Below are positions 2,058 to 59,758 of a stretch of 64,000 nt of DNA, one piece after another. A program made the position numbers and the translations under genes. The notes beneath the pieces are model-generated. The model was not told the DNA's origin. It saw only the letters and a list, made by a program, of their open reading frames with translations, and did no database searches. Origin of the DNA: Hydractinia symbiolongicarpus (lineage: Eukaryota > Cnidaria > Hydrozoa > Anthoathecata > Hydractiniidae); assembly GCF_029227915.1 (NCBI RefSeq), contig NC_079879.1, positions 23,454,501-23,518,500 on the forward strand, read 5' to 3'. The stretch's first letter is position 1. Each line of letters begins with the position of its first letter.

Positions 2058-5000
2058 ATGTGTATAAAACTAATAGAAATGAGTTGGTTCAAGAATGCAA
2101 TCAGCAAATTATACAGTACTGTATCAGCGCCAGTAGGAGCAACTGGCAACGCTCTTGCCGATCAATTACAGAGCGTGCGGGATACTGTTACTTTTTATTA
2201 TAATAGGGCAAAGGAACAACTTTCGAGAGGGAAAACACTTTACGATGAGGTGGAACAGGACGCACATGAAGAGTATCATACCGAAGACAACCGACAAAAA
2301 AAACTACACAGGTATTGAAGACATTAAACATCTGTTTCCACGAAAAAATAAGGAAGCCACAGGTATTGAAGATGTGCAGTAATTGTACGATGTTCTTGAC
2401 ATGCGCTTGCTAGAGGATGGTAGGCGAGTTAAGACATGCCGAATAACAAAGCATCTGAAATAATCACTGACAAATACTATCATGTGAAAAGCAACACCAG
2501 ACATCAACACGCGAACCAAGGTTGCTTACTGTTTTCAATGCAAGGTGCATCAAGGTGGTGGTGATGCTGCGAAACATCATAAAACTAAAGGGTCAACAGG
2601 AAAACTGACAAGTCTGAAAGAGGTGGAGGACTTTATCGAAGAATGCGAGAGAAAGCGACTTCACTTAGATGATCATGAGTTTTGATGTAAAGCTTATATG
2701 TCAGCTTCGAGAGTTATCGAAACACCGGGATGGAGGAAAGATTGTCTTCATGCATGTGCAAATGAAGCTTTTTTCAACAAATGAGCCTTTTTGGGATGCA
2801 GGCCATTACCCGATTGGCTGCACAAAAGCGGTGTATTTACGCTGTTGATGCTAAAAGTGAGCGCAGTGATGACTTGTGTGTTTGGCGTTGCCTGGCATTT
2901 AGACTCGTGGCATTGAGAGCAGAGAGACTGAGCATACGACAAAAGAGGCGCTAAAACTAGCAAGAGAATATTATGAAGATAGCAAGCTGAATTGTGAAAA
3001 TGTGCCAGCTACAAGAGTTATGGGCTTTGAGAAAATCGCGAAGAACTTCAACATCAACATCAGAGTGTATAAACCGAAGAGTAACTCAGAGAAAGCTCCA
3101 TAGATGCTGGTGTACGGTCAACGTCAATACAAAGAAAGTTTGGACACGATTAATCTTGGTACGCTTGGAGGTCATTGTTGCTATATCAAGAAGATGGATG
3201 TTTTGTGTCAAAAATAGGAATGCATGGCTTGTAAGGAAATTTTTACTCAAAGCACCCACTTGAATCGACACCTAACCGATGGTTCATGTAATGGTCGGCA
3301 ACCTAAGCTGATCTGCAATGGAAGGAAGTTTAAGCGCTTGTTAAACACTAGTGAGAAGGTGTGTAAGGATGCAAGCCTAACTTTCGCTATTCAGCATGTC
3401 AGTGGCTAGAAGCATAGTATGAAGAGACTGGTAAGCACATACACCACGCTTAATGCTGGCACGGAGGAGAACGTGTGATTTGAACTTGATCAAGCGATAT
3501 TTTGTAGCGAAAATTGTAAAGTCTGATGCCCCAGAACCCTGCCTGTTGATAGACGTTGAACTAGATCAGTTAGCAGCAGCAAAAGAGATACTTGTGGCGA
3601 AAGAAGATAACAATTACATGTTGTTGACGACAGACAAGTTTAAATTTCTTGATATTAGAAACTTTTTGGTTTGAGTTACGACGCATGGTGTAAATCTCTA
3701 CGGTGCAAACTGTAGAAAATGGTGCATCATTACGAATGGTTGACTAGCTATGGCAAATTAGGTCATTTTGGTCCCGTGAAGCGGCAAGAATTCTATAACA
3801 ACCTTACAAAGAGGGGGATTTCGTGACAAAAATATAGGCAGTTTCGGCGAGAGTTTTACAAGCGCGGATATGCAACGATGGTAACCTTGCTGAAGGAGTA
3901 CAACATAGCGGATGTAGAGCCATTCATCGAAGCTGTGGACAAGACCAGGAAGCAATACTATGATAAAGAGCTTGACATTTTAAAAGAAACAGTAAGTATA
4001 CCAGGTATCTCGCGAAAATATGTCTTAAACAAGGCGTTAAAAAAAATTGAATGTGAGCTTTATGCACCAGGAGAATCCTGTAAGCATAAATGTGAAAGTG
4101 GCTGCATGAAAAAAGCTTGCAAGGCTTGTAAAGAGGTTAAAAAAAGAGTGTAAGGAATGTGGAAAAAACGAGGCTTATGAACTACTACGGACAGGGATGG
4201 TAGGTGGGCCTGGAATTGTATTCACTAGGTACCATAAGCGTGAAAAGACAGGGATCAGAGGGCATGTATACTGTAGAAGCAGTAAGAAGTGCAAAACAAT
4301 CTTATGATACGATGAGAACGCCTTATATCTGTATTGCTCTGGTCAAGTCATGCCTTGTGGAAAGAAGCAGCTCGACAAAGTTATGTCACCAAGAAGTCGA
4401 CAAGGAGCCCAGAGGTTGAATGGAAAGGTTCTAAATGGGTTGTTGCGCGAGGTGATATCGAAGTGTCACGAGGGTTGTTAGAGACATTTAGTGAAATGGC
4501 TCGGCATTTTTTCATGGAAAGAATAATAGAAGACCCAGAGGATATGAAGACATCAGGAAGACACAGGGCGGAAGGAAGGCAAGAACTCGAGGAAACTATT
4601 GGGCGTTATGAAAGCTAAAAAGATCTTGCCTTATACATCATTATTAAAGTGGTACTTGGAGCATGGTTTGGGCTGTTAAAGATAAGGATAATAAGATCAC
4701 AGGTGATACTGCAAAGCTCAAAGGGAACAGCTTCTACGGAAAAATGATCGAAGATGTTGCTCATTGTTATGTTACTCAGTGTTACACAACATTTACAAAT
4801 AGTGATGAGAGAGTAGATATAGCACTGAGCTCACCATTTCGTGAAGATATTGACCCGAACGGTGATGCTCAAGAGAGGAAGAGAGGCGGAGATAACACGA
4901 CCGTATCAGTGTGGTATAGCGGTATACCAGTTGGCGAAGCTTCGCATGTTAGAGTTCTACTATGACTTTTTGAACAAGTATGTAGATAGAAAAAACTTTG

Positions 5001-5419
5001 AGCACATTTACATGGATACAGATTCAGCGTACTTTGCTATCAGCGGAGAGTGTCTAAGAGATGTTGTGAAACCAGAGATGCTTGAAGAATATGATAGAGA
5101 GGTTGTGAAATGGCTGGCAACTGACAAATATTCAGAAAGAACTCCAAGGATGTTTAAGTCTGAATTTATCGGATCAAAGATGGTTGCTCTGAGTGCAAAA
5201 TGTTACTTTGCTGAAGTTAAAAGTGGTACAAAGTATAGCTGCAAAGGTATGTCAAAAATTCAGACTGATCTCAACCGGAAAAGGTGCATGAATGTGTTAC
5301 AGGGTCCTCTTGATAAAGTTCGGAATACAGGCTTTCGAATACACAACCAAGGTGTTATAACATATGAGCAAAACAAGCTTGGTTTATCAGCGTATTACGA
5401 CAAAAGATATGTATTATAA
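2058..5419 (+). pseudogene. pPolB: Polinton (Maverick) protein-primed family-B DNA polymerase, degraded
   Basis: Pieces in all three plus frames line up in order as one large Polinton replication protein. An N-terminal region (GATGNALADQLQSVRDTV) is near 2130. A CxxC...HxxxH finger-like segment (ECMACKEIFTQSTHLNRHL) is near 3220. An exonuclease-side segment (NYMLLTTDKFKFLDIRNFLV) is near 3610. The palm follows, with KLKGNSFYGKMIEDV near 4697 and the catalytic YMDTDSAYFAI near 5009; the last frame ends LGLSAYYDKR. Many frameshifts and in-frame stops break it (TAG near 3100, 3215 and 3407, TGA in several pieces), so no working polymerase can be made. In Polintons this enzyme copies the element by protein priming. 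The best-preserved stretch is the palm, 4841-5419. Confidence 0.85.
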
Positions 5420-10165: not shown

Positions 10166-10288
10166 CAAAGGTAAAAAGTCAGGGTAAAAATCAGAATATA
10201 TATATATATACATCATAGTATACGGAATATAATATCCTTAATACTGCAATATATAGCTATATGTGCAACATAATTAATGTTTTTCCTA

Positions 10289-10356
10289 GCCCTGTCCAGG
10301 ATTCGAACTTGGATCTCTCATTTATAAGAGTGTCATAGCCATTAGACCAACAGGGC
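10289..10356 (-). ncRNA. tRNA-like pol III module, copy 1
   Basis: On the minus strand, a 7-bp acceptor stem GCCCTGT/ACAGGGC encloses a box-A-like TGGTCTAATGG and a box-B-like GTTCGAATCC. The anticodon arm is abnormal: only 19 nt separate the D stem and T stem, so no normal 7-nt anticodon loop can form. It is therefore a tRNA-derived module, not a functional tRNA. Seven copies occur in the array, all in one orientation. Confidence 0.7.
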
Positions 10357-12393
10357 ATGAATGCATATATACTTTTATAGTTGCACATTATAGCCACACA
10401 TGTACAGAAAGTCTGATATATAAGAACATCATTTAGTTTTCTTTATACAAGTGTCTCAGAACTGCAATATTAACCACAACAGCAAAAAACAAATCAAAAT
10501 ATAAAAATATATAACCAAAATGAGTCAAAACTTTGTACTCTCTGCACACCATATGTTACTTATGTTAACTTTTGAAGTTGTAGCTTCACGTCTGTCGTGG
10601 ACGACTGACGTCAGTCACTTTTTCCTCTTCTTCTACTTCATCTCTAGAGAGAGGAGGATGAGGGTTAGATCGAACTACAGTGACTATACTGTTTTCTGAG
10701 GCTTTATATATGGAGAAAAACACAGTCTATTCTGGACACAATATTCTATATGGGTCAGTGACACATTTTATTTAGAACAAAACAAATCAGAAGATGCTAC
10801 AAAACGTTACGAAGAATTTTTCTTATGCGAATTGGATGGCAAATTTGCAGGCGAAATGTATCTGAGCATGCACATTTTTATTTGTGTTATTTTGCTTCAA
10901 AAAGTTTGCTTAACTGAAAAGTAGAAACAAGGTTCTTTTTTCATGTAAATATACATCCTAACAAAGTTTTATCCTAACATAGAAAAAATAACAAAAGAAG
11001 TCTTAATTCAAAAAAAAAAGATGTATATATATACTCAATAAAATGCATAACTATAAATTCAAATAAAAGCTCAATGTTGTTCAATGTTTATATATATTTG
11101 AAGATTTTCTATGTTTCTATGTTAATTTTTCTGGACATGTTAATGATTGCACAAGAACCACTCCTTAGAAATTAAAAAAAATTGTTACTAGAAAATATGG
11201 ATGTTGGTGTTAATCCTGATATATATATAGAAATAATTTCAGTTTCTATAACATGACTCGCACTAGTGTATTAAATTAATTTGAAGACACATGATCCTGT
11301 TGCTGTATTAGCGAAAGAGTAGTCTGTTTGGAACGCCAAATAGTCTATGGGTCTACATTTTGTTTAGAATCCGACGACTACAAATTTACATGTTAAACAA
11401 AAATTGCATCCAGCACCGTGATGCCCCAGTGGTAGCTTAATATTTACTCCTCTGAGTGTTTGGTGATGCCTCTTAATTTCTAGATCATAACCTCCACTTC
11501 TTTCTTGAAAAATCTCATCATTTCGCTTCTAGCTGGCTGACTACGTTTAGCACCATCTTTAAAACACAACAAAAACTCCATCGCCGTGCTAAAAACACGT
11601 TGTCTCGCTCAATCAGATATTTACGAAAATTTACCAACAAATGACCAGATAAAATTACTGGGCAACACTGATAAAATGGCAGAATTTTTTATAAATTTGA
11701 TGTATAGGGACGAAATAGTATAGAAATCCTATATACTCTCCACCGTGCTTACTTTTTACTTATATTTGGCTTATTAATGAGGAAATGGGCTTCGACGCTC
11801 CGTGCGCTAGCGCGCACTCCGCTACTCTCCGCAATCAATATAGAAAGTGTTGCGGAGAGGTTGCCAAGGCAAAGGCATTAAGCACGGCAAGGAAAGGGCA
11901 AAGGCAGGCAAGGAAGTAGGAAGAGGAATCAGGAAGGCAGGGGTAGGCAAGGCATGGGAGCCACAGGTAAGGACATACTTTAAAGGAAGAAATTTTCGCG
12001 GAAGAAATTTTCGCGAGGCCAAAAAATCGCGAAATTTTTGGAATTTTCGCGAATAGCCTCTCCTAAGATTTTTCGCGGGAATATATTTTCGCGAATGAAC
12101 ACTTTCGAAATTTTTCGCGAGAAAAGATTTTCGCGAATGGCCTATTTTTAAAATATTTCGCGAGAATAAACTTTCGCGAACGAAGACATTTTTGATTTTT
12201 TTATACGTACCTAATTTATAAAAAACGTGTTTTTTATACAAAAAGCAGTTATATAAATGACAGCTGATTTGAGAATGTAAGTTTTTCTTTCGTTTGCACT
12301 TTTTCAAAACACAAAATAAACTATATATAAACAAGTTTTACAGGGTAAAGCTTTTCGTATTAACGAGTACCAAAAATATTTGTTTTAACAGTG

Positions 12394-12609: not shown

Positions 12610-14138
12610 TTAAAATGGGTCGATTGGAGGGAGATTCTTGCTACCCAGCTGAATCGCATCAGTAATTCCCGCTGCTCTCCATCCACTTTCAATGATACTT
12701 TTTCCTTTGCTGGTAGTCATCTCATCATAAAAGTCGACAACCCATTGAGCATGTAGGGGTTTGAGAGTAGTTAAACGCAGCTTAACATCTACTTCATCAA
12801 TTTTGACCACATCATTAAGCTGCCTTGAAATTTGATCAGCGTACCAGGTGCTGAATTTATTTCTCAAGAAGCGCTTTGCATGTCCATTGACAGTTAAATC
12901 TAATGGTTGATAAAACTTGGTCATATTTGCTGGTACATTGACGACACATATGTGGTTTTCCTTGATCTTATTGAGGACTTCGCTCGTCATTTGGCCAGTA
13001 AATACATCCATGATAAGCAATCCTTTTTGATCAAGAGGTAGCTTGAGTGTTGCTCGTTCTTCTTTTAGGTAGGGCGAAATGATTTCTTCAATTATTTTGA
13101 TTGACTCTGTCGTGTTAGAGTAGTGAGTGGGGTTTGCACTCAAACTGAAGCCGTCTGGAAACTTGAAGCGAGGTAGACTCTGTTCCGTCTTTCCCCCGTA
13201 GATCAGCTGGATAGGCAAAAACTTATTTGTAAACGTTATTCCAAATGTTCCAGTAATCGATCGTTTGTCGCTAGCAGCTTCCATGACTACGGACGCTGAA
13301 CCACGTTTGGCTAGGGTGAAATTACCAGTTGGGACATATTTTAGGGGTGTTTGGTCAATGTTGACGATCATGGAGTGTGGTATGTTATGCTTTTCAATAA
13401 GGGTGACGATCTCATGGTGAAACAAAAATTCCATTTCTTTCCTGGCACCGTCAGGAATATTAACCTTCGAAGAAGTCTTCATCCGCCGAACGAAGCCCAT
13501 ACGCTTGAATAAGCTTTTTGCCCAACTTGATGAATCGACATCAATGTTTCCAACGGCGCCCGGATACCTTGACATTCCATCAATTTCTCCAAGTAGCAGT
13601 GGACGACCTACTGGCTTCGAGTATTTGGACACAGATTTCACAACTTCACGTTTTTCTTTCGAAGCGATTTTTATCTCCTTCACGACTTTCTCTTTGAACG
13701 ATCGAATTGTGCTCTCTGTGAGCCCAGGAAACTGCGACTTGAACTTCCGTAGCGCAGCACTGTTGCCATTTTTACGTGCGTAGTCGCCAATCGTAAATCG
13801 GTCTTTAGGTTGCCATTTTACGTAAGTCTTTCTTTCCTTCGCTTTTTCCGAGATTGCTTGCACATCAACTACACCGAGGCCATCGACTTCAGGCAAGGAT
13901 TTAGAGGTAGTACCTAAAAATAAAAATAAAGGATTTTGTAGAATAATTTTTTAAAATATACCCTGCAATAATTTCATGATAATTCATTTGGTACAAGAGC
14001 TTTTTGCTGGCAACGAAAAATATAACACTAACCTGCAGAAGGTTCCGGAGGAGCAATGTTCTTTTCTGCAGGACTGTTTTCTTTAAGCTTATCTTCTAAA
14101 GCTTTTTTAAGCTTTTGACTTATTCGAAGGAAAGACAT
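12610..14138 (-). CDS. Pogo/Tigger-like DDE transposase, two exons
   Basis: Exon 1 is 14138-14033 (ATG in a helical, lysine-rich leader, donor CTGCAG|GTTAGTG). A 119-bp intron follows, with a T-rich acceptor TTTTTAG|GTACTACC. Exon 2 is 13913-12610, in frame across the phase-1 junction, giving about 469 aa. After a helix-turn-helix-like N-terminal part (KFKSQFPGLTESTIRSFKEK) comes the DDE_1 catalytic domain: first Asp in IVNIDQTPLKYVP (about residue 222), second in GLLIMDVFTGQ (about 338), third in TKFYQPLDLTVNG (about 374). All three acidic residues are present. The segment between GEIDGM and SSSWAKSLFKRMGF looks shorter than in related transposases, possibly an internal deletion in the CENP-B-type DNA-binding region. 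It would cut and paste the 3.53-kb element around it. Confidence 0.88.
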
Positions 14139-14562: not shown

Positions 14563-15177
14563 ATGTCTTCGACAGAAAAGATTTTAAAATTTTCTTCAGC
14601 TGTAAGAGGTTTTCATTATTATCAGAGATTATGGTTCCCAAGAGAAGAAGAAACACTTAATTGCTATTATGAACAAGACAACGCATTTGATCTGTTTGCT
14701 ATAAAAACCGAACAGTGCGATTCTGGAACAACAGTGGGACACTTACCCAGAGAAATTTCTAGGATAACAAAGCTTATTCTAGACAGGGGTGCAAGGATTA
14801 CGGCTACTCTAACGTCAAAAAATTATCGTCGATCTCCATTGGTTCAAGGAGGATTGGAAATCGCATGTGAAGTCACTGTGAGAATGCCAGCTACAATAAA
14901 AAACCACATGATTTTGGATCGTTATAAAGAATTGCTGAATGATTATTATATCGAACCAAAAGATAAAGAAATTCTCGGAAATTTTCTAGCACTTTCAACT
15001 AATAATGCTTCTCCACCAGAAAAAGAAACTGCTCCGAAAAGAAAGAAGAAAAAAACCACAACAAACGTCAATGAGAATATCCCGGACAAAAGGGTTATAT
15101 TCCGTCGCCAACAAAAAAATCACAATAAACAAAACAGGGACGACGCCAAAGCCGAAACAGTAATTGTAATAGATTAA
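14563..15177 (+). CDS. HIRAN-domain protein encoded inside the transposon
   Basis: ATG 14563 to TAA 15177, 204 aa, no intron. Residues about 12-107 form a HIRAN domain: VRGFHYYQRLWFPREEET, the acidic/asparagine motif YEQDNAFDLFAIK, then VGHLPREISRITKLILDRGA and a closing VQGGLEIACEV. HIRAN domains (HLTF/Rad5 family) bind DNA 3' ends or damaged forks. The C-terminal 60 residues are basic and low-complexity (PKRKKKKTTTNVNEN), a probable nuclear localisation signal. There is no ATPase or nuclease domain. It lies within the 39-bp inverted repeats, divergent from the transposase, so it moves with the element. It may process ends, assist target or fork choice, or be a captured passenger gene; this is inference. 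Confidence 0.82.
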   Translation: MSSTEKILKFSSAVRGFHYYQRLWFPREEETLNCYYEQDNAFDLFAIKTEQCDSGTTVGHLPREISRITKLILDRGARITATLTSKNYRRSPLVQGGLEIACEVTVRMPATIKNHMILDRYKELLNDYYIEPKDKEILGNFLALSTNNASPPEKETAPKRKKKKTTTNVNENIPDKRVIFRRQQKNHNKQNRDDAKAETVIVID

Positions 15178-16146
15178 ACAAAACAAAAAGAAAATTTTTA
15201 AAAGATATTGAATAACTGTTTACGTTATTACTTCCTAATGCTTTCATTTTTTAGAGTGAGAAGTGCCATAAATAAAACCTTGCACATTTTTCTCAAACTT
15301 TTCCCCAATAAGGTATTTGTTATGTTGCAAAAATAATTTTTTCGTGGGAATTTATTTTCGCGAATCAAGCATACTTGAAAATTTCGCGGGAATTTATTTT
15401 CGCGAACGACCCCTTTTGATTTTTTTCGCGGGACTTTATTTTCGCGATTTTTACCAATATTCGCGAAATCGCGAAAATTTCTTCCGCGAAAATTTCTTCC
15501 TTTAAAGTAGTAGGCAGGCACCAGAAAAGGCATAGGAAGGGTAGGCAAAGAAAGGCACGGTCAGTGCAGGCAAGGCAATGGAACGGCAAGGCAGGGGTGC
15601 ATGACTTTAATAGAAAATCTCCACCTTACAACTCAAAGATTGCGTATACTCAATATGTCTAAGTTAAGTATCATATTAGTCCAGGAGTATAGAAAATATT
15701 GAGGTGCAAATATTTCAAATTCAATATCTCAAAAAAAAGTCTCAAATTTATCTCAGGTCAATATACAGTGAATCATAGCAGAATTATGTGCCATTACAAG
15801 TATTTAAACAATCAGTCATAACGACATATCATTTTTTGATAAATCTGAGATTAACTTGGTTCCAATGACAACAACATTAAAAAGTCAAGATATAGAAATA
15901 ATCATAGAAGTCTTCGAGAAATGCAAAAAAATTATTAAAAAACGCCTTTTTTGGTTTCTTGTGCCTACCAGGTGTATCAACAAAAACTTTTTACCATAAA
16001 GTAGATCTATTACAAAAAACAAAGCACTTTTGGGCTCTATAAATGAAAGTGGTAAATGTATGCAACTCCCCCCCTTTACGACTCAAAGATTACCTATTAT
16101 ATGAAAACCTGGTTGTTGTAGGTGCAAGATAATTATGTTTTTTCTA

Positions 16147-16214: not shown

Positions 16215-18195
16215 ATAAACATAAATATATATACAAGACTTTACAGGTGAATATTATATACACTTAGGAATTTGCAGCACACAGCCTAGATAAAATAAAC
16301 TTTTGAGAAATGCTGGTTAAGCCACAAGTAACTGTGTTACCTGGCATAAAACACTTGTTGAAACAATTAATACAAATTGTAAACTGTAGCACACATTCAG
16401 GTGGAGCGCCTTAGTACAGGTGTGCACTATATCATAAATCGAGTGAAACACCCAACATTTAAGGTGTGTTGGGTGTATAATTATATTTTTCAGATTCACA
16501 AAATATATATATATTTCCTTCAACTTTAGCTTGAATAAAAACACAATTTACATATTGTGCCATGTCATAACGAAAACTGTCAGCAAACCTTTTTTATTTT
16601 TCACAAAATGTTCCTGGTAAAACTTAAAATATATATGTACTTTAATCTGTGGTGCGCCATTAGTATAGGCAAACAAACCCTTTCAAAAACACTTTAGCAC
16701 AACTTCTGTTAAATAGAAACACGGGTAACAGCTTGTTGTTAACACTGGGCTGAGTGATTTGTGCAGGTATATATATATATATATGTGTTGCACATACTTT
16801 TCGGCATAATACCTATTTCCAAAAAACCTGTTGTTATCCTATGCAGCTAAACCAATCTATCTGTAGAATATATAGGTATGTACTTTTGCTGATTTCACTA
16901 AACATTTTAGTCCTTGATTTTTGATCTAAAATTGTCCCATACATATCTTGTCCCTGTGGCTAGAACAACAAGCTATGTAATGGACATTTCTAATCAGAGT
17001 AGAATTATCTCACTTACTGTGTCATGTCAAAAAAATTTATATGCTAGCTAAAGGAGCTAATTTTATGCCTGCTTAATTGGTAGTTTTATCCCAGCCAATT
17101 AGTTAATTTTATGCTAGCTTTGTAGCTAGTTTTATGCTATAGCCCTTTTTTTATAGCTAGCTAAACGGTTAAAGTAAGCTAGCTATATGTTATCTAAGTT
17201 CTGTTATTATGCCAGCTAAGTGGGCAGTTTTATACTAGCTAGCTTTAGGTGGCAGTAAGGATAAGAAGGGGTTCATCAATGTAAAGAAATAGTGATCTAC
17301 TAGCTGTACATACCCTTTCTTCGTTTTCCTCAAAATACCCTTCTACCCTATCATCAAGCTATCATCAACTAAATTTTCGTTTCAAGCGCTATGTATCTGA
17401 GGAAATGTCATGTGATATTAGTAAGAGTAACTAATGAATCACGTGGCTAATGCTGTATGCCGACCTGATCTTAACTGAAAACGGCGTGTCTCGACCAACC
17501 GGATTTTCACGGAAGAAATGACCATAAAAAATATTTGGGTAAGTGGGTCAAAAATCGGACGTTTTAAAATTTATTGTACTAGGAGAAAACGCGGAAATTC
17601 GTTACGCTCTAATATATTTATGGGAACGAGGAAAATAGCTCCGTTCGAGCAATGGCTCTCTCTCCGCAACCAGTATAGAAAGTGTTGCGGAGAGGTTGCC
17701 AAGGCAAAGGCATTAAGGAAAGGGCACGGCAATATATTTAGCGTTGCACGGCAAAGGCAGGCAAGGAAACAGGGAGAGGAATCAGCAAGGCAGGGGTAGG
17801 CAAGACAGGGGTAGGCAAGGCATGGGAGGCACAGGCAAGGGCATAGCAGGCAGGCACCAGAAAAGGCATAGGAAAGGAAGGGATTTATTAAGAACGGCAA
17901 GGAAAGGGAGCGACAAAGGCAGGCAAGAAAACAGGAAGAGGAATCAGCAAGGCAGGGGTAGGCAAGGCATGGGAGGCACAGACAAGGGCATAGTAAGCAG
18001 GCAACAGAAAAGACATAGAAAGGGAACGGCAAGAAAGGAACGGCAAGGCAGGGCCAGGCATTTAAATATACACTCCTTCCCCTTCTACAACTCGAAGATT
18101 ACGTATATTTAATTAAGGTATTATAAGGTCAATATACAGAATTTTATCAATATAATACAACGGGGTTGTTGTAGGTGCAAGATAATGTTTTTCAT

Positions 18196-18261
18196 GCCCT
18201 GTCCAGGATTCGAACCTGGATCTCTCGTTTACGAGTGTCATAGCCATTAGACTAACAAGGC
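18196..18261 (-). ncRNA. tRNA-like pol III module, copy 3 (canonical B box)
   Basis: Best B box of the series: GGTTCGAATCC on the minus strand, with a perfect 5-bp T stem (CCAGG/CCTGG). The anticodon region CTCGT-AA-ACGAG folds into a 5-bp hairpin with no room for an anticodon loop. The acceptor stem carries one mismatch. Confidence 0.7.
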
Positions 18262-19345: not shown

Positions 19346-19443
19346 TCAGAATATATATATATATACATCATAGTATACGGAATATAATATCCTTAATACT
19401 GCAATGTATAGCTATATGTGCAACATAATTAATGTTTTTCCTA

Positions 19444-19511
19444 GCCCTGTCCAGGATTCGAACTTGGATCTCTCATTTATAAGAGTGTCATAGCCATTAG
19501 ACCAACAGGGC
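19444..19511 (-). ncRNA. tRNA-like pol III module, copy 4
   Basis: Duplicate of copy 1 within the U1/U3 shared block; same box A, box B and short anticodon arm. Confidence 0.7.
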
Positions 19512-22840: not shown

Positions 22841-23782
22841 CTAGTATAGAAAGTGTTGCGGAGCGTGGGACTGAGTCCCCTAGGTTTGCAAGCGAAAAAT
22901 TTTAGATGCCCCTTGCGGTTGAATTGTATAACGAATCGTATAAAAAACAAAGTTCCCACGTGCTCCATGGTAATCGATCAAACTGTTTCATCTTCGCCTT
23001 GATGAAACATTTCCTGGGGTTTCCGCATTAGCAGTATATACCGTAGTGTGTTCCGGACGCAATATTACTTGCACCAGGGACATATTTTCTTTAGAACCTG
23101 ATGTATCGAAAATGCTAAAAAAGGTTAAACGGAACAAGAATGGTGTTCGGCTCAAGTTACAAAAACGGAAAATATTTCTTTATCGTGAAATTATTTTCTG
23201 GTTTAAAAAATTATGAGATTTCCCGAACAGGAAATTTTTTCATTTTTCTGAAATTTGTTTTGATTGAACCCAAAAAATGAATTATATATATATATATTTG
23301 AAGATTTTCAGTAGGCGTTGATGATTGCCATGAGAACCGCTTGTCAGAATTTAAAACGCCTCAGTAATAACAAATGTATATACATGTTGAAAAAGTTTCC
23401 CCGATACATATTTATTGAAATAATTTCCGTTTCTGTAACTTGAGCCGCACTGGTGTAAGCTCGAGCTAGCTAACTATTCTTAAAGTAGTTAGCTAGCTAT
23501 AGCTACAGTACAGTCCAGATGTAAGCGTACGTGTACGCTCAACTTGCAAAAATAATTGCTTTCATTAAAAAAACAATGGTATAGCGAGTTCCTTTCAAAT
23601 TGCGCGAAAATAATTGCTTCGTGTTAAAAACAAAAGCATAGCGAGAAACATTGTTTAAAAACAATACTCTGCTCGAGAATAAATTAAACGCGACGGCCAT
23701 TGAATTTTAATTTTTTTTAACAACGAAACTAATTATAGTAACGCGATTTTAATCTGATATATTTAAAATCACAAGCTCTTAC

Positions 23783-24224
23783 TTTCAAAATGCGATCTAA
23801 AAAACATTTCTATTGCAGTTTTTCGTTTTTAATCTTTTAAAATGCGATCTAAAAAAAAATTTCTATCGCCGTTTTTCGTTTTAAAACTTTTAAAATGCGA
23901 TCTAAAAAAATATCTATCGCCATTTTCCGTTTTAAAACTTTTAAAATGCGATTTAAAAAAACATTTCTATCGCCGTTTTTCGTTTTTAAACTTTTAAAAT
24001 GCATTCTAAAAAACATTTCTATCGCCGTTTTCCGTTTTTAAACTTTTAAAATGCATTCTAAAAAACATTTCTATCGCCGTTTTTCGTTTTTAAACTTTTA
24101 AAATGCGATCTGAAAAAAAATTTCTATCGCTGTTTTTCGTTTTAAAACTTTTAAAATGCGATCTAAAAAAACATTTCTATCGCCGTTTTTCGTTTTTAAA
24201 GTTTTAAAATGCAATCTAAAAATC
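23783..24224 (+). repeat. Minisatellite of 52-54 bp, about 8.3 copies
   Basis: Head-to-tail repeats of a unit that begins TTTTAAAATGCGATCTAAAA and contains CATTTCTATCGCCGTTTTTC. Copies differ by a few bases (GCGATC or GCATTC). The repeats lie inside the TA-flanked element and end in a truncated copy. Confidence 0.92.
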
Positions 24225-36697: not shown

Positions 36698-36959
36698 TTA
36701 TCGTCCACTTCTTCTCCTGCAAAAAGAACCGAAAACTGTAGAATATTTACATCTTCTTCTCCTTTGATACGATCTTCTTCTTTGCATCAAACGTTTTGTT
36801 TCCTTCACTTTGCAAATTGAACATAATGATTTATCTAAAATTATTTACCTTTAATTGAAAAAAACAAGGAGTTATTTATCGCAAAAACTGTCAAGACTGG
36901 TATAGCTAATGCTAAAGATATTAACAAAATTGTAAGAACCTTTTTCTTTCCAATATTCT
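36698..36959 (-). CDS. Candidate exons of a fourth secreted-precursor locus (partial)
   Basis: A 111-nt exon candidate (36959-36849) has a good acceptor (TTATTCCCAACAG), a donor AAAG|GTAAAT and phase 1 at both ends. It encodes a hydrophobic helix, KKKVLTILLISLALAIPVLT plus VFAINNS. Two alternative last exons follow. With acceptor GCAAAG|TG (36807-36698) it reads KETKRLMQRRRSYQRRRR then CKYSTVFGSFCRRRSGR-stop, two cysteines framed by basic clusters. With the stronger acceptor TCTTTTTGCAG at 36717 it reads only GEEVDDKK-stop. The phases match the three genes upstream, but no start codon exon was found. It may be a fragment, or part of the adjacent gene. Confidence 0.3.
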
Positions 36960-37769: not shown

Positions 37770-37905
37770 ACATATTGCTGCACGTAGTGTAGTGTGTTCG
37801 TCTGCGCCTCCCAGTTCTGGGGACCGCTGATCAAATCCCGCTCACTGCAAGGCAGTATGTTAGTGATGCGCAAAATAGATTCTCTTCAATTTAACTTTTT
37901 CCTTG
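37770..37905 (+). mobile_element. tRNA-derived SINE fragment, type 1
   Basis: Contains GTAGTGTGTTCGTCTGCG, then GGGGACCGCTGATCAAATCC (B-box-like) and CGCTCACTGCAAGGCAGTAT. A second copy lies at 46850-46960. The last exon of the secreted-protein gene A overlaps its downstream part. Confidence 0.55.
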
Positions 37906-38147
37906 CTTGCTGCAACACAATTTTTAAAAAGAAAAACTCACCTTTCTGACAATATATTTTGATGCAATTAAGCCGCCATTTCTTGAAGTCTAAAAATTAA
38001 AAAAAAACATTTAGCAGTAATATGCGAGCTTAAAACGCCATATTACCTATTTATTGTCCTTATCAGCAAATTTAGTGCAAGTTATCAAAAGTTCGTCTGC
38101 TCTCAGTTTGCGAATTGTTTACCTTTCGTATCCTTGTTATCACTTTT

Positions 38148-38178
<31 letters not shown>

Positions 38179-38217
38179 TCGCCATCATCGTCATCAACAG
38201 CATTATTCTCATAATCT

Positions 38218-38248
<31 letters not shown>

Positions 38249-38672
38249 CATTATCGTCAACAGCAGCATTATCAACGTAGAATGCGTCGTCAACTTCGTT
38301 TTCAAAGTTCTTATCAATTTCATTTTCGCCTTGGTCAAACTGAGAACATACTATTAGACAAAAAGCAACATTATTTTGCAATTTCTGCAACGAAAAGTAA
38401 AGCTTTTAGAAACATACGAACAAGTTGTTACTTGGGGTAAAGGATATTAACTTAATATGACTCAAATAGCATAAAATAGTAAATAAAAATGGTCAATGTT
38501 AATTACATACGTAAAGGATCCCAGTTGTAACATGCTAACATATACTTGTATAACCCCTTTGTATAACCCCCTGGGTATAACATAACTTACAAATAATAAT
38601 GACCTCATTACCTGGATTGCAAAATAGAGCAAGCATAAAAACAAACAGTGCCATCCATTTTATTTTCATCAT
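37860..38672 (-). CDS. Secreted acidic precursor, paralogue A (4 exons)
   Basis: Exons: 38672-38612, 38350-38123, 37989-37942, 37909-37860, all joined in phase 1 with GT-AG borders (donors CAG|GTAATG, AAAG|GTAAAC, AAAG|GTGAGT; last acceptor GTGTTGCAG). Predicted product 128 aa. Exon 1 is a signal peptide (hydrophobic WMALFVFMLALFC). Exon 2 is extremely acidic, built from GAT-repeat DNA (DDNDDDDDDGDDDEDYE). Exon 3 has C-x4-C (NCIKIYCQK). Exon 4 is short and basic (KEKVKLKR) and ends IYFAHH, its stop lying in SINE sequence. Same architecture as genes B and C upstream. The missing four-cysteine tail suggests that the SINE truncated or rewrote the 3' end, so it may be degenerate. Function unknown. 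Confidence 0.6.
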
Positions 38673-39479
38673 TTTTACGAGCGAACCAATTTACCGTTGC
38701 TTCTTTTAAAATCCTGAACCACACTGAAGACAATATACAAAAGAGTTTATTTATATCACATCTATGAAAATATTTTTATTTACAAGAGTTGGTTGCATGT
38801 TGTTTAATCCGGCATCTACTTACTACCAAAACAATCTGGTTTAAAAGAAACGTAATGATTGGCTTAGAATTTAAAATCGAGTTTTTTAATTGGTTGAAAA
38901 TATCAATGCATTTTCGTTAACACTTGAATATCACACAAATAGTTAGAGTCCTTGTCTGTTCCCTAACTAATTTTGGGAGAACACGAACATTCATTATTGA
39001 TCAAACTTTTGTGTATAATTTATCAACAAGCTCGTCAGTTTTTTTTAGAAAAATGTAAAATCAGCCTGCTTCCGCTGCATATAAAATATTAGGACTTGCA
39101 GCTCCTCTATGTTCAAAGCAACACCTATATTATTTTTTATTAAAGCGGGCTGATCCAGCTCTTCGTTGCCTTTTTGGTTGTAGTCATGCCAGAGACTACA
39201 AATGTGCGATCGGTTGAAAAAGTAAGAAGCAGCCTGCGTGGTTACTCAAATCGTGATGCAAGTTTTATCATTTTATTTGCGAAAAATGTGTGGAAAAGAC
39301 AAACGCTCAAATGCTTTATCAAAATTCATTGTTCTTGAAAAATAAGGCATGTTTCATAAAATACTACTCCCAATCTTGTTTGTATTTTTAAGCACCACTT
39401 CCGTGTATAAATAAAAACAAGCTGTTTTAAAAATTTAGAATTAATTGTTGTCCCTACAAACTCAAGGGTACCTCAATCG
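38673..39479. other. Intergenic, partial SINE at 39140-39250
   Basis: AT-rich spacer between gene A and a TTCGCGAA element. The segment with GTCATGCCAGAGACTACAAA resembles the body of the SINE at 54374 (GTCATGTCAGAGACTATAAA). No gene seen. Confidence 0.5.
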
Positions 39480-40205
39480 ATTAATTTTCGCGAAGATTAA
39501 TTTCCGCGATTTTCGGTAAAATTCGCGAAAATAAGTACTCGCAAAAAGTTTAGAGAAGATCAATTCGTGAAAATTAATTCTCGTGAAAATTTTGAAAAGG
39601 GTTCATTCGCGAAAAAAAAACCTCGCGAAAATTTTGAGAACGACATTTTTTTCTTCATCTTTTTTTTTCTTTTTTCATAGATTTCTCTAAGTCATGTAGA
39701 AGTTCTGTTCTTTTTTGTTTTTACCTCGTGCTTGCACTATACTTAAATCAATACTTACAGTCTCTGAAAGAAGGTTTTAATGTCTTTTCATTCTTTGGGT
39801 TTTTAAACAGGATCCGTTTTCCTTTTTGCTTTTGGCTGTATATCAAATTGAACGTTGGCGCATTAGCATTCTTCTCAACAAAACTATCCGTTATTACTTC
39901 ATCTTTCGGTTTACAATAGAGTTCTTGTACCATTTCTTCATAGCGTTACAACACCAAATGGCCTTTAAACTAGCTGGAATGGTGACCGTCACTTCACACG
40001 CAATTTATTTATTTGATTCCTCTTTTTGTTGATAGTGAAGCGAATCTGTGATGACATATAGATCTTTGTAACTTTGCTACTACAGCGAAGACATAGTTTC
40101 TTTACCCCACACTCGTTAAAAATTATTTAACAAAAATTAATCCTCACAAAATGTTTTTTTTGACCTTGCGAAAATTAGTCCTCGCGAAATTTTATCCACT
40201 CGAAG
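39480..40205. mobile_element. TTCGCGAA-type non-autonomous element, second copy
   Basis: The left part (39480-39630) has several TTCGCGAAAATTAAT-like repeats and the right part (40125-40200) the complementary set (AAAATTAGTCCTCGCGAAAT). About 730 bp, no coding capacity. Related in motif to the elements at 37012 and 11978, but the exact ends are unclear. Confidence 0.45.
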
Positions 40206-40639
40206 TAGTAAAAAGCAATGATATAAGTGATCGTTCCCTAAAATATCTGACCCCACCCCTAACCCCTCCTTTTTCCATTTACGAAGCATATTCTATGATG
40301 GTAACAGAGATGTGACTTAGGCTAAAGATGACGACTTGTTCTTATTCAATGGAAATTAAACACAGACTTTATTTCTCAATCTTGTTTCTTGTATCATGCT
40401 ATATATAGAAATACAAGTTGTTGACCTGAAGGAATTCCCGAACATATTTTGTATATTTTTTTCTATGTAGTGATTTACTCTGGGGCGCTCAGCGACAACA
40501 GCTGACTGTAACATAAGCATTATTAGCATACACACAGGCGATGGCTATTATTATGGAGAGGCCAACGTATGAAGCTATCTAGTAAGCTACCTGATAATGC
40601 TTTCTTAAAATTTTACACGCTGTCCCTATTTACTGTGCA

Positions 40640-40670
40640 AAAGATTTTATTTTTTATTTATTTATATTAA
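40640..40670 (-). terminator. Poly(A) signals of paralogue B
   Basis: About 60 bp past the stop codon the minus strand has overlapping AATAAA motifs (AATAAATAAAAAATAAAATC), appropriate for 3' end formation of gene B. Confidence 0.5.
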
Positions 40671-40722
40671 ACAAGAACAATAACTGTACTTTCATATTTA
40701 AATACACTTATTCTTCGTCTCT

Positions 40723-41434
40723 CTACTTCACATTTACAAGGCTTTTACATCTGAATTTTCCAAACATAGTGTGCGCACTTGAACATTCTGGATCCTCATA
40801 GCTGCCGATATTCCTGCATAGTCTACTGTCCCGCAGTCGTTTATTTTCACATAATATTCTCCAGTTAGTATTATGTCCGTTTACTTTCCATTGCAATACT
40901 GGTATATTGGCTCTTCTGGTGCTGTAATCTAAGATAAACAAAAATAGATAAACACCGCCGATGTGACTAGTTTTCAGCTGAAAATAATGTGTTTTACCTC
41001 GCTGGCTTAGGCAAGAACCATATTCACACTCCTTGTCAAAGTCTTCTTCTAGCACGTCTGAAAGAAACAAATAAAAGCTCACGCTCGAAATACAAATTTT
41101 ACGCCAAAGCATCGTTACTCATATGATATTTTTTGTGCCCCCTGCCCCACCTCTGCTAAGCCACTTTTTTACCTTCTAAAAGATCACGGTCATTGTTATA
41201 GTCATCATCATCATCATAGCCCTCGTCGCTGTCATCGTAAGAGAGGTCCTTATCTTCATCCTCATAATCTTCAAAGTATCTTGAGCTTACTAAAGATACA
41301 CAAATGAAATGGGTGAATATACTTGTTTATTTTGTCAAGAGAGGTTATAAAAGAAAAATATTAAAAGTACCTGGTGTCCAGCACACAGACAAAATAAAAA
41401 CAAAAATAATAAACTTCGTTATTCCAGCCATCAT
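40723..41434 (-). CDS. Secreted acidic precursor with four-Cys tail, paralogue B (4 exons)
   Basis: Exons: 41434-41371, 41289-41173, 41057-40998, 40928-40723; all junctions phase 1, GT-AG (donors CCAG|GTACTT, GAAG|GTAAAA, CGAG|GTAAAA; acceptors ATCTTTAG, GTTTCTTTCAG, TTTATCTTAG). 148 aa, every frame open to TAG at 40725-40723. Signal peptide (TKFIIFVFILSVCWTP), then an acidic exon (EDYEDEDKD, YDDDDDY), a small exon with C-x4-C (ECEYGSCLSQR), and a last exon beginning after a dibasic STRR. Its cationic tail has four cysteines spaced C-x10-C-x10-C-x11-C and a FGKFRC motif. This looks like a prepro-protein whose acidic part masks or escorts a basic disulfide peptide. It could be a hormone, antimicrobial or venom-type peptide; I do not recognise the fold. 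Confidence 0.75.
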
Positions 41435-42909
41435 CAATCCCTGTGTACTATTTTTTCTTTTACCTCTTATATAGCACTGAGATTGAAAATAAAGTAATGT
41501 TTGTTTTTGTTGCTTTTATATGAGCTTAGATATTGAAAACGTATGTTATTCTTTCACAGAGTTATTGTCTTAAAGTAGTCAACAAAAATAGCGTGTCGGA
41601 TTTTAAAGAAACTTTGCTTGTCAAGCACATTTTTCAGGCTTTAGGACAGTTTTAATACAACATAACTTCGCTATGACTATATCTATTTCGCTGTTGTTTT
41701 TTTAAATATAAAAGGTTTAATGAAAAAGAAACAACTTTTTGCTCATGGCTATGAGTAAGGCATGGTATGGTATTACTTGCAGTATGTCATTTCTCTAAAA
41801 CATTAACTAGAAAACTGTTGCAAAAGAGCTTAACGGGCAGGGTTGAGAACACACACACAGAGAAATTATTACATTGTTTTTTAATTTTACTTACATGTAC
41901 ATCCTTTTTCTTGCTAATTATTAAGCTATGAACACCAAAAATCGTAAAGGCAAACTAAAGTAGACTCATTTCACAAAAAAGGTTTTTCCAGGTGAATCTT
42001 CGTAATTCACATTCTTAGTCTTCCTACTTTAGCAGCAGCTGGCCTATTACTTCCAGTGGGATGGGGTAGGCGGTGGGGATAGTGGGTCCAATTTACATGG
42101 ACCAAGTTCAAATACTGAAAACCAGAACAATTAACGAATAGTAATGCTTATTGTGAATGAATTGTGATATTGATAGTGTTTTGTTAAAATATTTTTTATG
42201 TGGGCACAGGAAATACGTTAGTGACAATTTTCTTACTTCGTCGACAGCTAAAAATACTAAGTGGCTATATGTATATTGTTTTTTGAGATGTGCGGTTAAT
42301 CATGGCTCCACCGTCATTTTTAAGTGAGACTGATCGTGACGGCAAGTGTAATCAGTGTCATAAGAAGTGACCAGTACTGCATTGTACATCGTTCAAGCAT
42401 TGCTTTTAAGAAATAAGAATTCCATTCACTGTTGCGAGACCTGTCATCGGCAAAAAATCCACTCACATGTATCGGTTGACACCTCGATGTACACTTCACT
42501 TGGAAGAGCTTTATTTTTGGTGTTCCTACAGTTACTTCAAATTGATAAAAACTCGCAAAAGATTTATTTCGAGAAAGTTTGTACTTCTAAAGCATCAGAA
42601 GTTTTTTCATAAGAAGGAAAAGAGTAATTTCCCCTGGACCAAGAAGGTTGAGTACCCTACCTTCAAACTCCACCTGCTTTTACGAAGCCACATCACTTCT
42701 TTTTCACATCAACAACAACGTATTTATCTGCTGTCATTGTATTTTAGGAATATTTGTATAAAAGAAAGTACAAAATATAAAAAACACAACAAAGTAGTAA
42801 GAATATAAGGAAATACATGTTTTTGTGTGTGTGATAAGACATACATAGCAGCAAACGTGTTCCTAATTATGTAAATAATAAGGATAATAATAAAAGGCAG
42901 AAGTTTCCT
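41435..42909. other. Intergenic, unidentified open frame at about 42.3-42.8 kb
   Basis: Between paralogues B and C. A plus-strand stretch from 42302 (APPSFLSETDRDGKCNQCHK, then stop) and a 113-codon frame at 42467-42808 have scattered cysteines but stops between them and no recognised domain. Otherwise no gene seen. Confidence 0.35.
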
Positions 42910-43681
42910 TCAATCAATGCATCTCCCTTTAAAGAATGTTTGACTTGATGTGCATTTTTCATCTCCATATTTAGCTTTCTTTTTCACGCAAACAACGGTA
43001 CCATCGTCTAAGTAATAACACCGTACCCTTTTCCTTTTCCCTTTGTTAGCTAATAATGATTGAAGTCTTGGCAAATAGTCCTCTAAAAATAAATTTTTTT
43101 TAACAAGTATGATCAGTACACTACAGCCTTGTGTTAATTCAATAAAATACACGGTAAATGTTAGGATTAAGTAAATTTTTACTCACCGCTCACGTCTTCA
43201 CTTAAATCAAAAATTTCATTCAGTATTTCTAGAATAAAATTATAATATTATTTAGTCATTTTATTTTTACTCATTTAGTCATTTTACTTCAAATTTACGC
43301 ATGCTTTTTGATTTCTTCCTTCACAATTTTAAGGCCTTTATGAGCAATGTGAATACCATCCTTGCATTGGGCAAAAAAAGGCCGAGATACACAAAACTGG
43401 AACCAACACGAAACCATTTGTAAGGCCGCTATGAAACAACAAAATGCTTACCTTTCGGGGAAAGCTGATTGATGTCTTCATCCTGGATAACATCTTCTAG
43501 CTGTAGCAGTAGATCGTTTTCCTGTTCATAATAGGGTCTTGCGTATGCTATTGAAGAATTTTTTGTCACATGTTTTAAAAGAAATAATTTAATTTTTTAT
43601 TTTGTGGTATAAATTATTACCTGTTGAGCAACATATAAAAATAAGCACAAAACTTGATATCATCCTGTATGCATCAGTCAT
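42910..43681 (-). CDS. Secreted precursor with KRKR site and four-Cys tail, paralogue C (4 exons)
   Basis: Exons: 43681-43621, 43547-43452, 43228-43187, 43082-42910; all junctions phase 1, GT-AG (donors ACAG|GTAATA, AAAG|GTAAGC, AGCG|GTGAGT). 123 aa, open to TGA at 42912-42910. Signal peptide (MISSFVLIFICCSTA at the join), then two acidic pro-region exons (QLEDVIQDEDINQLSP and EILNEIFDLSEDVS). In the last exon KGKRKR is a strong furin/prohormone-convertase-like site directly before a basic tail (RCYYLDDGTVVC) with cysteines spaced C-x9-C-x11-C-x10-C and a closing FFKGRC. Spacing and closing motif match paralogue B. Mature peptide would be about 38 residues. Receptor or target unknown. Confidence 0.75.
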
Positions 43682-55138: not shown

Positions 55139-55335
55139 GCTGATTTAAACATAGTCATAAGAAAAAGAGATAGTCTGGTGAATCGCGCGGCTCTATTGTT
55201 ATGCTTTTGTTAGCGGAATATACCTCGTACCCAGTGCTTTGACTGCACGCTCGTGTTGAAAAATGGCGCATTTAAGTGGTTAGTTACTGTAAACAACATA
55301 GGATTAACAAACATTTAAACAGAATTATTTTCAAC

Positions 55336-57443
55336 ATGCCTGGCGAAAATCGTAACCACTCTAGCAGAACCACACTTGTTCCCGGTGCTATCCCCACAAT
55401 AAACCTTCCTATCAAAAGTTTTCCTTCATCCTCCACATCTTCTAAGCCTCGTCAATCAGCACAATCAATTTTGCAGAAAAAAATTGAACCAGTGGAAAAT
55501 GTCATTACTGATCAGTACAAGTCATTTACAGATTTTATTTCTAAAACTCAGTTATTGAAATTAGTCGGTTGGAGTTTTACCTATACAAGTGATTGTGCTT
55601 CTTTTGCCTGTCATGATGCTATCCACTCAGTTCCAAAGTATGAGATATATGTTGATAATAATCTTGTTTTTACTGTTCGTGTTTTATTATGGTCTGTTCC
55701 TGCTAAACACGACATTTATTCTCAATCACTAAAATTTATTACAATCACATATTTAACAAGATTAATTATGGATTTGAAATTATGCCCAGGTTTGACAGAC
55801 CACTTTGTTGGTAGCTGTCTTGAGCACTGTGTTCCAAAAGTATTTAACATCAAGGATAGTACTAGTGCACCTCTTCATCAAAGCAAATGGTATCGATCTC
55901 CAAATTGCATAGTTCTTATTCCACCTTCTTCTGAAAAATGCTTGGAATGTGTTAGGTCGGAGTCAAAAGAAAGCCTAAGTTTGAAAAAGAAAAGGGACAA
56001 TTTAATTTCACCTGCCAAACTTAAAGCACCAATTTCCATGACTTCTCCAGACCGAATCATAAAAACCCTTCAAAATCACCGGTTGGAAAATAAAGAATTA
56101 AAGGAAGAGTTAAAGAAAATGCAAGATGAAATTTCCACTTGTGCAGTTCCAGTCCAAAAAAGTCTTGGTGATGATTTCATAAAAATTATGTCAACAACTA
56201 ATCGCAAGATACCACCATTCATGAAATTTTTTTGGGAAGAGCAGCAGAAATATTTATCATCATCGAAAACTGGTGTTCGCTATCATCCTATGATCATTCC
56301 TGCTTGGGTTTAGCTGCAAAATCCCCCGCCTTTTATGATGAGATTCGTGTTGACGATAAGAAAGACAGTGGTTTCTTGGTACTCCCTAGTAGACGTCGTT
56401 TAAGGGACTATAAGAACTATATTCGTCCAAAGCAAGGTTTTAACAAAGACGTTATCCAGGAATTGTGTATTATGGTCTCCAAATTCCAACCACATGAGAA
56501 ATATGCAATATTATTAATGGATGAAATGAAAATTCAAGAAAGTCTTGTGTGGGACAAGCATAATGGTGATCTTATCGGTTTTGTTGACCTTGGTGATATT
56601 GATCTAAATTATGTTGCGTTGAAAAAGGTTGATGAAATTGCATCTCATGTCTTAGTTTTTCTTGTGAGAAGCATTGTAAATCCTTTAAAATTTTCATTTG
56701 CAAATTTTGCTACTACCAATGTCACATCAATTCAATTGTTTCCTCTCTTTTGGAAAGCGGTTGGCATACTGGAGGAAAAATGTGGCATAAAAGTTGTTGG
56801 TGTCACAAGTGATGGAGCATCTCCAAACCGACGAATGTACCATATGCACCTAAACATGACCCGTGTAGCTGACATTAATGCGGGAGTGGACGTAACATAC
56901 CGCACTTTGAATGTTATGGCGGATGAGAAACGGTACATCTACTTCATCTCAGATCCACCACACTTAATTAAAACAGCCCGCAATTGCCTGAGTAATTCTC
57001 TTGCAGGAAAATGTACCAGAAGTATGTGGAATGATGGAAGTTATATCACCTGGAACCATATTTCAAAGTTATTCCTTGATGACTTAGACTGTGGATTACA
57101 TCTTGTTCCTAAAATAACAAATGACCACATCAAGCTCACACCATATTCAGTAATGAATGTACGTCTGGCAGCACAAGTGTTAAGCGAATCTGTCTTTAAC
57201 GCTCTTCAATTGTATGGACCACCAGAAGCTAATGCAACTGCCAAATATTGTAATATGTTCGACCAATTTTTTGACTGTCTTAACGACAAGAATACCAAAG
57301 AAGCAGCATTTAAACGTAAACCATTTCTTAAACCGTACACATCTGTTGATGATGAAAGATTCTTATGGTTGACCGAAACATTTCTAGGATATTTCAAAAC
57401 ATGGAAGGATTCAATTGCTGATAGGCCTGGTAATTACGGATAA
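55336..57443 (+). pseudogene. P-element/THAP9-like transposase, frameshifted and lacking THAP domain
   Basis: Frame 1 (ATG 55336, or 55276) opens with TTLVPGAIPTINLP, the linker that normally follows a THAP domain, but no C2CH finger precedes it. Next come a cysteine-containing region and a coiled coil (RLENKELKEELKKMQDE). Near 56300 the frame shifts: PMIIPAWV-stop in frame 1, CLGLAAKSPAFYDEIRVDDK in the next. Frame 2 holds the RNase H-like core: AILLMDEMKIQESLVWDKHN (first catalytic Asp), GVTSDGASPNRRMY, and YFISDPPHLIKTARN. It stops at 57443 after TETFLGYFKTWKDSIAD, short of the usual C-terminus. Decoded as one protein it would be nearly 700 aa; as it stands the frameshift and truncation should make it inactive. 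Confidence 0.82.
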
Positions 57444-58739: not shown

Positions 58740-59758
58740 CCTTCTTATATGAACAAATCAAAACAAACTTGGAACCGATTGCGCTCCCAAGCTTCGCTAC
58801 CATCTATGTTTGCCAGAACATATGGGAGCAAATTAAATATTCAGTCTTGTTTATGTATATTCTGCAATTTAAACCCCACGGGCGACGCGGGCGTCGCGAA
58901 TTGTAAACAAACATCTCCATCTTTTTACCATGGATGAAAATAATAACATACTTGTCATTTGAAAAATTTAAAATATGGAGTGTCAACGCTCCGAAAACCT
59001 TTTTACACATCCGGGGAAAGATTACTGAGGGTGGAATTGATGATTTAGAAGCAAGGTATACATTTGTTAAAGAGTTTTAAAAATGTGACTGTTGTGGAAA
59101 AGGTTTATTAGAAGTCAAATCACCTTTTCGATCAAAGGAGAACAACTAACTGCATGTAATTTACCCTACTTGGAACAAACTCTTAGCGATAAGAATGAAA
59201 AGATAACAACATTAAAAACAGACTGCAGTTACTATTTTTAGGTGCAAGGACAATTATCTGTATCAGGTAGAAACTACTGTGATTTTTTGGTGTATACAAC
59301 AGCTGGCTATCATTTAGAAAGAATATTTTTTAAACAAAAATTATGGGAGGAAATGCAAATAGAACTTGATTGTTTTTGGTCAAACATTTTATGCCCAGAA
59401 TTGTTTAATGGGCAAATTAAGAATCAGCTAAATAACAATAGAACAAACAACGAAAACAAACAAAAATCGGTTAGAAAATCTCAACAAAAACCACCTATTG
59501 TAGACGCACCTCCAGCCAAGATCCAGAAAACAAAAAATAAAGTTAAAACAACAAAGAATCCAATGATTGAAATTTATCTGTGTGGAGTATGTCAAAAACC
59601 GCTATCTACAAAACCAACAAAATATGAAGATTTTAGTGTAGGGTGTGATAAATGCCCACTTTGGTATCACTTCACATGTGCAGAAATTCCTTGGGGGTAG
59701 ACGCTAGCAATTTCGATCAATGGATTTGTGAATGGTGCCGAAACATCACAAGTATATA
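58740..59758 (+). pseudogene. YqaJ-type nuclease fused to PHD finger, broken
   Basis: Broken frames give CDCCGKGLLEVKSPF (about 59083), the conserved LLEVK-P core of YqaJ/lambda-exonuclease-like recombinases, then after a TAG or possible acceptor VQGQLSVSGRNYCDFLVYTT and YHLERIFF, followed by CPELFNGQ. A basic linker leads to a PHD finger: CGVCQKPLS, VGCDKCPLWYHFTCAE, then after a one-base frameshift near 59690 WICEWC, completing C4HC3. YqaJ-PHD proteins occur as second genes of some eukaryotic DNA transposons (ISL2EU, as far as I recall). Stops and the frameshift make it non-functional. Confidence 0.65.

Follow-up and report, generated by a model that had tools for sequence, protein, structure and literature searches.

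The 64,000-nt stretch of the Hydractinia symbiolongicarpus genome analysed here (assembly GCF_029227915.1, contig NC_079879.1, positions 23,454,501 to 23,518,500; referred to as the window, within which all coordinates are given) carries three small neighbouring genes on the minus strand, which we call A, B and C. Each gene begins with a hydrophobic, signal-like exon 1, continues with an acidic exon 2 and ends with a basic last exon. The layout common to all three is a signal peptide, assessed by eye from the character of the sequence, followed by one or more acidic exons and a basic tail with four cysteines; exon number, intron phases and charge layout are identical in kind across the genes. 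An earlier note on this DNA had claimed that the genes form a tandem family, that their products are secreted acidic precursors whose cationic C-terminal part bears cysteines, and that they share one gene structure; the analysis presented below supports this claim.

Structure of the three genes

Gene C extends over 43681-42910 (-), and its product is identical at every residue to the uncharacterized NCBI protein LOC130646299 (123 aa). The signal-peptide-like exon 1 (43621..43681), placed by protein match to the NCBI entry, is followed by the acidic exon 2 (43452..43547), the likewise acidic exon 3 with the N-terminal sequence EILNEIFD (43187..43228) and exon 4 (42910..43082), in which a KGKRKR site precedes the basic tail. 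This tail holds four cysteines, spaced C-x9-C-x11-C-x10-C and ending in the terminal loop CTSSQTFFKGRC (42919..42954). Counted from the second in-frame methionine, the net charges of the four exons are 0/-6/-5/+7, and an AATAAA lies 343 nt past the stop. NCBI as a rule keeps orphan gene models on transcript evidence, which is an indirect indication of a transcript for gene C.

Gene B sits between A and C at 41434-40723 (-) and consists of a signal-peptide-like exon 1 (41371..41434), an acidic exon 2 (41173..41289), an exon 3 (40998..41057) that combines a C-like N-terminal DVLEEDFD with a C-x4-C pair as in A, and an exon 4 (40723..40928) with STRR followed by the basic four-Cys tail. Together with the pair in exon 3, the tail (C-x10-C-x10-C-x11-C, with the terminal loop CSSAHTMFGKFRC at 40747..40785) brings the protein to six cysteines; its net charges by exon are +1/-16/-5/+7. 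The cysteine spacings of the B and C tails fall inside the ranges given in the earlier note, which had also correctly placed the basic sites upstream of these tails, STRR in B and KGKRKR in C.

Gene A, rebuilt from the window, reproduces the uncharacterized NCBI protein LOC130646298 (157 aa) at every residue. Its exons on the minus strand are a signal-peptide-like exon 1 (38612..38672), an Asp-rich exon 2 (38123..38350), an exon 3 (37942..37989) with DFKKWRLNCIKIYCQK and a C-x4-C pair, and, following the NCBI model, an Arg-rich exon 4 with the four-Cys tail (36698..36834), which lies behind an intron of 1107 nt and outside the span first given for the gene. The gene end is accordingly 36698 and not 37860, and the coding span in the genome is 1975 nt. 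The last exon originally proposed for this gene, 37909-37860, is absent from the NCBI model and without a cysteine tail: the stretch is open and preceded by a GT-AG phase-1 intron, yet it is not the annotated exon. Versions of exon 4 starting at 37844 and 37909 were dropped because the exon at 36834 yields the LOC130646298 protein. The four cysteines of the 45-aa exon 4 and the pair in exon 3 make six, the terminal loop CKYSTVFGSFC (36719..36751) is preceded by RRRR and followed by RRR, and net charge by exon is +2/-35/+4/+15. Neither AATAAA nor ATTAAA was found in the 600 nt past the stop. With gene A corrected, all nine introns are GT-AG and all nine are in phase 1, as had been claimed, their donors fitting the consensus at 6 to 9 of nine positions; the exon lengths of 42-228 nt were also given correctly.

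Opposite charges within one chain, most extreme in gene A (-35 in exon 2 versus +19 in exons 3-4), would also be expected of a structural secreted protein whose acidic and basic halves complex by charge, in a cuticle, an egg coat, mucus or an adhesive, with no peptide being released by proteolysis, and the very Asp-rich exon 2 of A fits such a role. We regard this as very improbable, given that the proteins are small, that basic sites of cleavage type lie in the tail or directly ahead of it, and that the cysteine pattern is C-terminal.

The spacer between A and B contains two palindromic TTCGCGAAAATTAATTTTCGCG-like repeats (39487-39510 and 39564-39587), and two further copies lie at 12157-12180 and 15383-15406. 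With up to 3 mismatches, the repeat gave 8 matches over both strands at these 4 places, compared with a mean of 0.00 in 100 shuffled sequences.

Terminal loop and kinship of the genes

All three tails end in the motif Y-x4,5-C-x3,4-T-x-F-x3,4-C. In the six frames of 264 kb, this motif, which was derived by inspecting these very tails, matched three times, once each in A, B and C, and the reversed sequence gave no match. When triples of tails were shuffled with their cysteines fixed, any residue pair common to the last loop arose in 18 of 20,000 cases, and such a pair plus an upstream residue in 5 of 20,000. The cysteine spacing C-x9,10-C-x9,11-C-x9,11-C had nine matches in the six frames of the same 264 kb, and the two with exactly four cysteines were the tails of B and C.

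Genes B and C are the closest pair. In local alignment, their fourth exons score 42. Free shuffling gave at least this score in 25 and 14 of 10,000 cases, shuffling with fixed cysteines in 90 and 70 of 10,000, and the anchored score of their exon 3 starts (DVLEEDFD and EILNEIFD) was reached by 71 of 20,000. At the DNA level, comparison of the three genes returned short matches only, mostly GAT-repeat and A/T-rich. We conclude from the sequences that A, B and C can be taken as one tandem family, firmly in the case of B and C and likely in the case of A, because the loop motif agrees together with neighbouring position, strand, exon number and phases.

Homologues and database searches

Protein searches covered 5.8 billion proteins and required shared 5-residue words, with a limit of E (expectation value) 10; for gene A, residues 1-52 served as the query. 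Candidates reaching this limit numbered one of three for C, none of 16 for B and two of two for A, in total the two Hydractinia LOC proteins and a third protein, P0003. The suspicion that the family is lineage-specific thus stands, relatives having been found only in Hydractinia-like sequences, and the claim that it escapes gene calling fails for A and C, which are uncharacterized NCBI proteins, and may hold for B, where the search turned up no database protein.

Gene B is apparently unannotated, because none of its 16 word-sharing candidates, with proteins of 0.55-1.75 times the query length visible to the search, reached E 10. This raises the alternative that only A and C are functional, with B a copy that is decaying or not expressed, a scenario compatible with any of the functions considered here and favoured by the contrast between B and the one database protein each for A and C. 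We consider it unlikely, since the frame of B is intact, its splice sites are GT-AG, an AATAAA follows 61 nt past the stop, and its tail is the strongest match to that of C.

P0003 is a 156-aa protein represented by two contigs, the longest of 1170 nt, and is 83% identical to A overall. By exon, 17/20, 53/64, 11/16 and 40/45 of the aligned residues are identical, the alignments contain 1, 11, 0 and 11 gap columns, and all six cysteines of A's exons 3 and 4 are kept. Because its open frame of 156 codons lies on a contig of 1170 nt, compared with a genomic span of 1975 nt for gene A, the contig is best read as the spliced transcript of a related animal. The earlier note had proposed spliced transcripts and conservation as its check; for gene A alone, P0003 speaks in favour of the note on both counts, being uninterrupted across the three junctions with six cysteines retained.

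The terminal loop, the element common to all three tails, suggests another function as well. Flanked by basic runs on both sides in A (RRRR-CKYSTVFGSFC-RRR), it might be cut out as a cyclic hormone that acts on a receptor, and in the available part of PMC6402141 cyclic neuropeptides such as CTGQMCWFRamide are predicted in cnidarians; the FRamide cyclic preprohormones share with our genes a secreted precursor and a short cysteine loop near basic residues. However, the cnidarian preprohormones described in the accessible portions of PMC6402141 and PMC9545775 are multi-copy and amidated, whereas A, B and C each carry a single terminal loop. A Gly-Arg end occurs in A only among the three genes (the C-terminus is SGR in A and P0003, and B and C end differently), and the loop residues vary between the paralogues and between A and P0003, which is unusual for a receptor ligand. 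A signalling role therefore appears decidedly improbable.

Further members of the family were sought at two scales. When the whole 481-Mb genome was searched with the A and C tails as protein queries, only each tail itself was found; the coarse first look of the genome tail searches scored just 1, 1 and 3 candidates, and distant paralogues may escape it. Two matches of the B tail (E 0.47, C13; E 1.08, C5) lack the loop motif and have neighbouring frames that resemble ordinary cellular genes, and were attributed to chance. Cysteine-rich tails before stops numbered 251 in the 264 kb; among those with a charge of at least +3, which include A and B and leave C outside the filter, no further family member was recognized by eye.

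In the literature, no mention of LOC130646299 or LOC130646298 was found, and a term search of the Hydractinia cell atlas (PMC11876637) and the genome paper (PMC11067881) yielded, in the parts of these sources it covered, no passage on A, B or C. A thesis cited in the available excerpt of PMC11820242 reportedly found antibacterial activity in four synthetic peptides that had been predicted from transcriptome data of H. symbiolongicarpus.

Other features of the window

Outside the gene cluster, several open reading frames (ORFs) point to mobile elements or carry recognizable domains. A 428-codon ORF at 12610-13896 (-) contains a DDE_1 transposase domain (Pfam E 5e-09), and a 403-codon ORF at 56232-57443 (+), with TNP-like RNase H and GTP-binding domains, is presumably part of a P-element/THAP9-type transposase; the ORF 55276-56313, just upstream and in a different frame, overlaps with it. 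The ORF at 59242-59700 (+) contains a PHD finger (E 8.2e-07), and a HIRAN-like domain in the 204-codon ORF at 14563-15177 (+) scores slightly below the Pfam cut-off (23.9 vs 24.7 bits). The ORF at 4841-5419 (+) has no Pfam match and contains a YMDTDS stretch that, we assume, resembles family B DNA polymerases. Three tRNA matches (10288-10356, 18195-18261 and 19443-19511) lie on the minus strand within ~9 kb, two of them with equal scores (46 bits) and perhaps copies of a repeat, and a tandem array with a 53-nt unit, 8.4 copies and 90% matches occupies 23781-24222.

Discussion

The layout of A, B and C has its closest counterparts in Hydra. As described in the available part of PMC10945409, the antimicrobial peptides of Hydra derive from precursors of bipartite charge, have a complex cysteine pattern, occur as tandem paralogues and are restricted to one genus; homologues of these families were sought in Hydractinia, and that part of the paper reports none. 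The portions available of PMC10945409 and PMC11767717 describe the periculins as small secreted precursors with an anionic N-terminal and a cationic, cysteine-containing C-terminal region, encoded by tandem paralogues with one exon structure and confined to one lineage, all of which appears to hold here as well. The cationic region of periculins differs in holding eight cysteines, compared with four per exon 4 in our genes, to which exon 3 adds a further two in A and B. No homology to periculins was detected in our 5-residue-word protein searches, and the comparison with periculins is one of descriptions. The arminins, according to the same part of PMC10945409, are likewise Hydra antimicrobial peptides of bipartite charge, with clustered paralogues and restriction to the genus. 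They are, however, described as alpha-helical, whereas the Hydractinia tails hold four cysteines. To our knowledge, arminins have no cysteines. Vertebrate defensin precursors also have an acidic pro-piece that offsets a cationic disulfide peptide, as in A, B and C; the three genes differ from them in having no Pfam defensin match at cut-off.

Because the same layout marks antimicrobial peptides in Hydra, we propose by analogy that A, B and C may form a tandem family of antimicrobial-type secreted prepropeptides, restricted to the Hydractinia lineage as far as our searches reach, a reading to which we would give about an even chance. In such a scheme, exon 1 would, by its sequence character, direct the protein to the secretory pathway, and the acidic exons would make up the pro-piece. 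Its negative charge would balance the cationic tail and probably keep it masked while it is still within the secreting cell. A cationic, disulfide-looped peptide would then be freed by cleavage at basic sites, namely KGKRKR in gene C, STRR in gene B, and RRRR together with other basic runs in gene A. By analogy with Hydra, this peptide would most likely target the membranes of microbes on the surface of the colony or within its gastric cavity. The genes would have arisen by tandem duplication and fast divergence, with the exon phases, the charge layout and the terminal cysteine loop retained.

A number of observations weigh against this proposal. On the side of kinship, looser forms of the loop motif were not enriched over the reversed control (16 vs 22 and 7 vs 8 matches), so that only the exact motif discriminates, and P0003 itself replaces the T of the motif by P and has an 11-residue insertion in the tail. 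The free local alignment of B/C exon 3 is modest (reached by 274 and 104 of 5,000 shuffles), A/B exon 4 is weak in plain alignment (263 and 411 of 10,000), and A/C exon 4 (5146 and 6012 of 10,000), P0003/B exon 4 (3927 and 4245 of 10,000), P0003/C exon 4 (7559 and 8292 of 10,000) and, apart from the cysteine pair, A/B exon 3 (1474 and 1968 of 5,000) are at chance. For exon 1, A/B is modest (62 and 43 of 5,000) and the remaining pairs are at chance. On the side of function, only three genes were found, compared with 28 periculin paralogues in Hydra vulgaris, and the peptide downstream of KGKRKR in C has a charge of just +3. No Pfam family reached cut-off, no credible solved relative of the three tails was found in the PDB, and the folds modelled for the tails of C and B were too poor to use (predicted local distance difference test, pLDDT, of 49 and 63). 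Pfam matches below cut-off (the best being YL1, E 0.0013, and CDC45, E 0.004) track acidic runs and were rejected; in the PDB, C matched PIT54 (E 0.11) and a proteinase inhibitor (E 0.49), both taken as chance, and no match came up with the tail of A or of B.

These database results also bear on a role in venom, in which the cationic cysteine tail would be a toxin-like nematocyst component, packed together with its acidic pro-piece and discharged from stinging cells or gland cells. Cnidarians are venomous, and acidic pro-pieces and fast-evolving disulfide-rich peptides are also marks of venom precursors. We nevertheless think such a role quite unlikely, as no toxin family reached the Pfam cut-off and no solved toxin matched, although a new scaffold would give no match either, and since the Arg-rich A tail, with +15 in 45 aa, has more the character of a membrane-active antimicrobial peptide.

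With the antimicrobial-type reading kept as the preferred one, A, B and C are a new family that represents the same kind of system as in Hydra and not a new kind. More tentatively, and with some doubt on our part, Hydractinia may have evolved its own bipartite antimicrobial-type family independently of Hydra, on a new disulfide scaffold with the loop Y-x4,5-C-x3,4-T-x-F-x3,4-C as its core and a hyper-acidic pro-piece neutralizing an Arg-rich looped effector, which could shape the colony microbiome or act on competing colonies. Two uncharacterized NCBI proteins are now joined in one family, together with a third gene between them that is without a database protein. Hydractinia serves as a laboratory model, which makes the proposal directly accessible to experiment. 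If it is true, an unrelated Hydractinia family follows a Hydra-like logic, which would point to hydrozoans re-inventing such precursors lineage by lineage.

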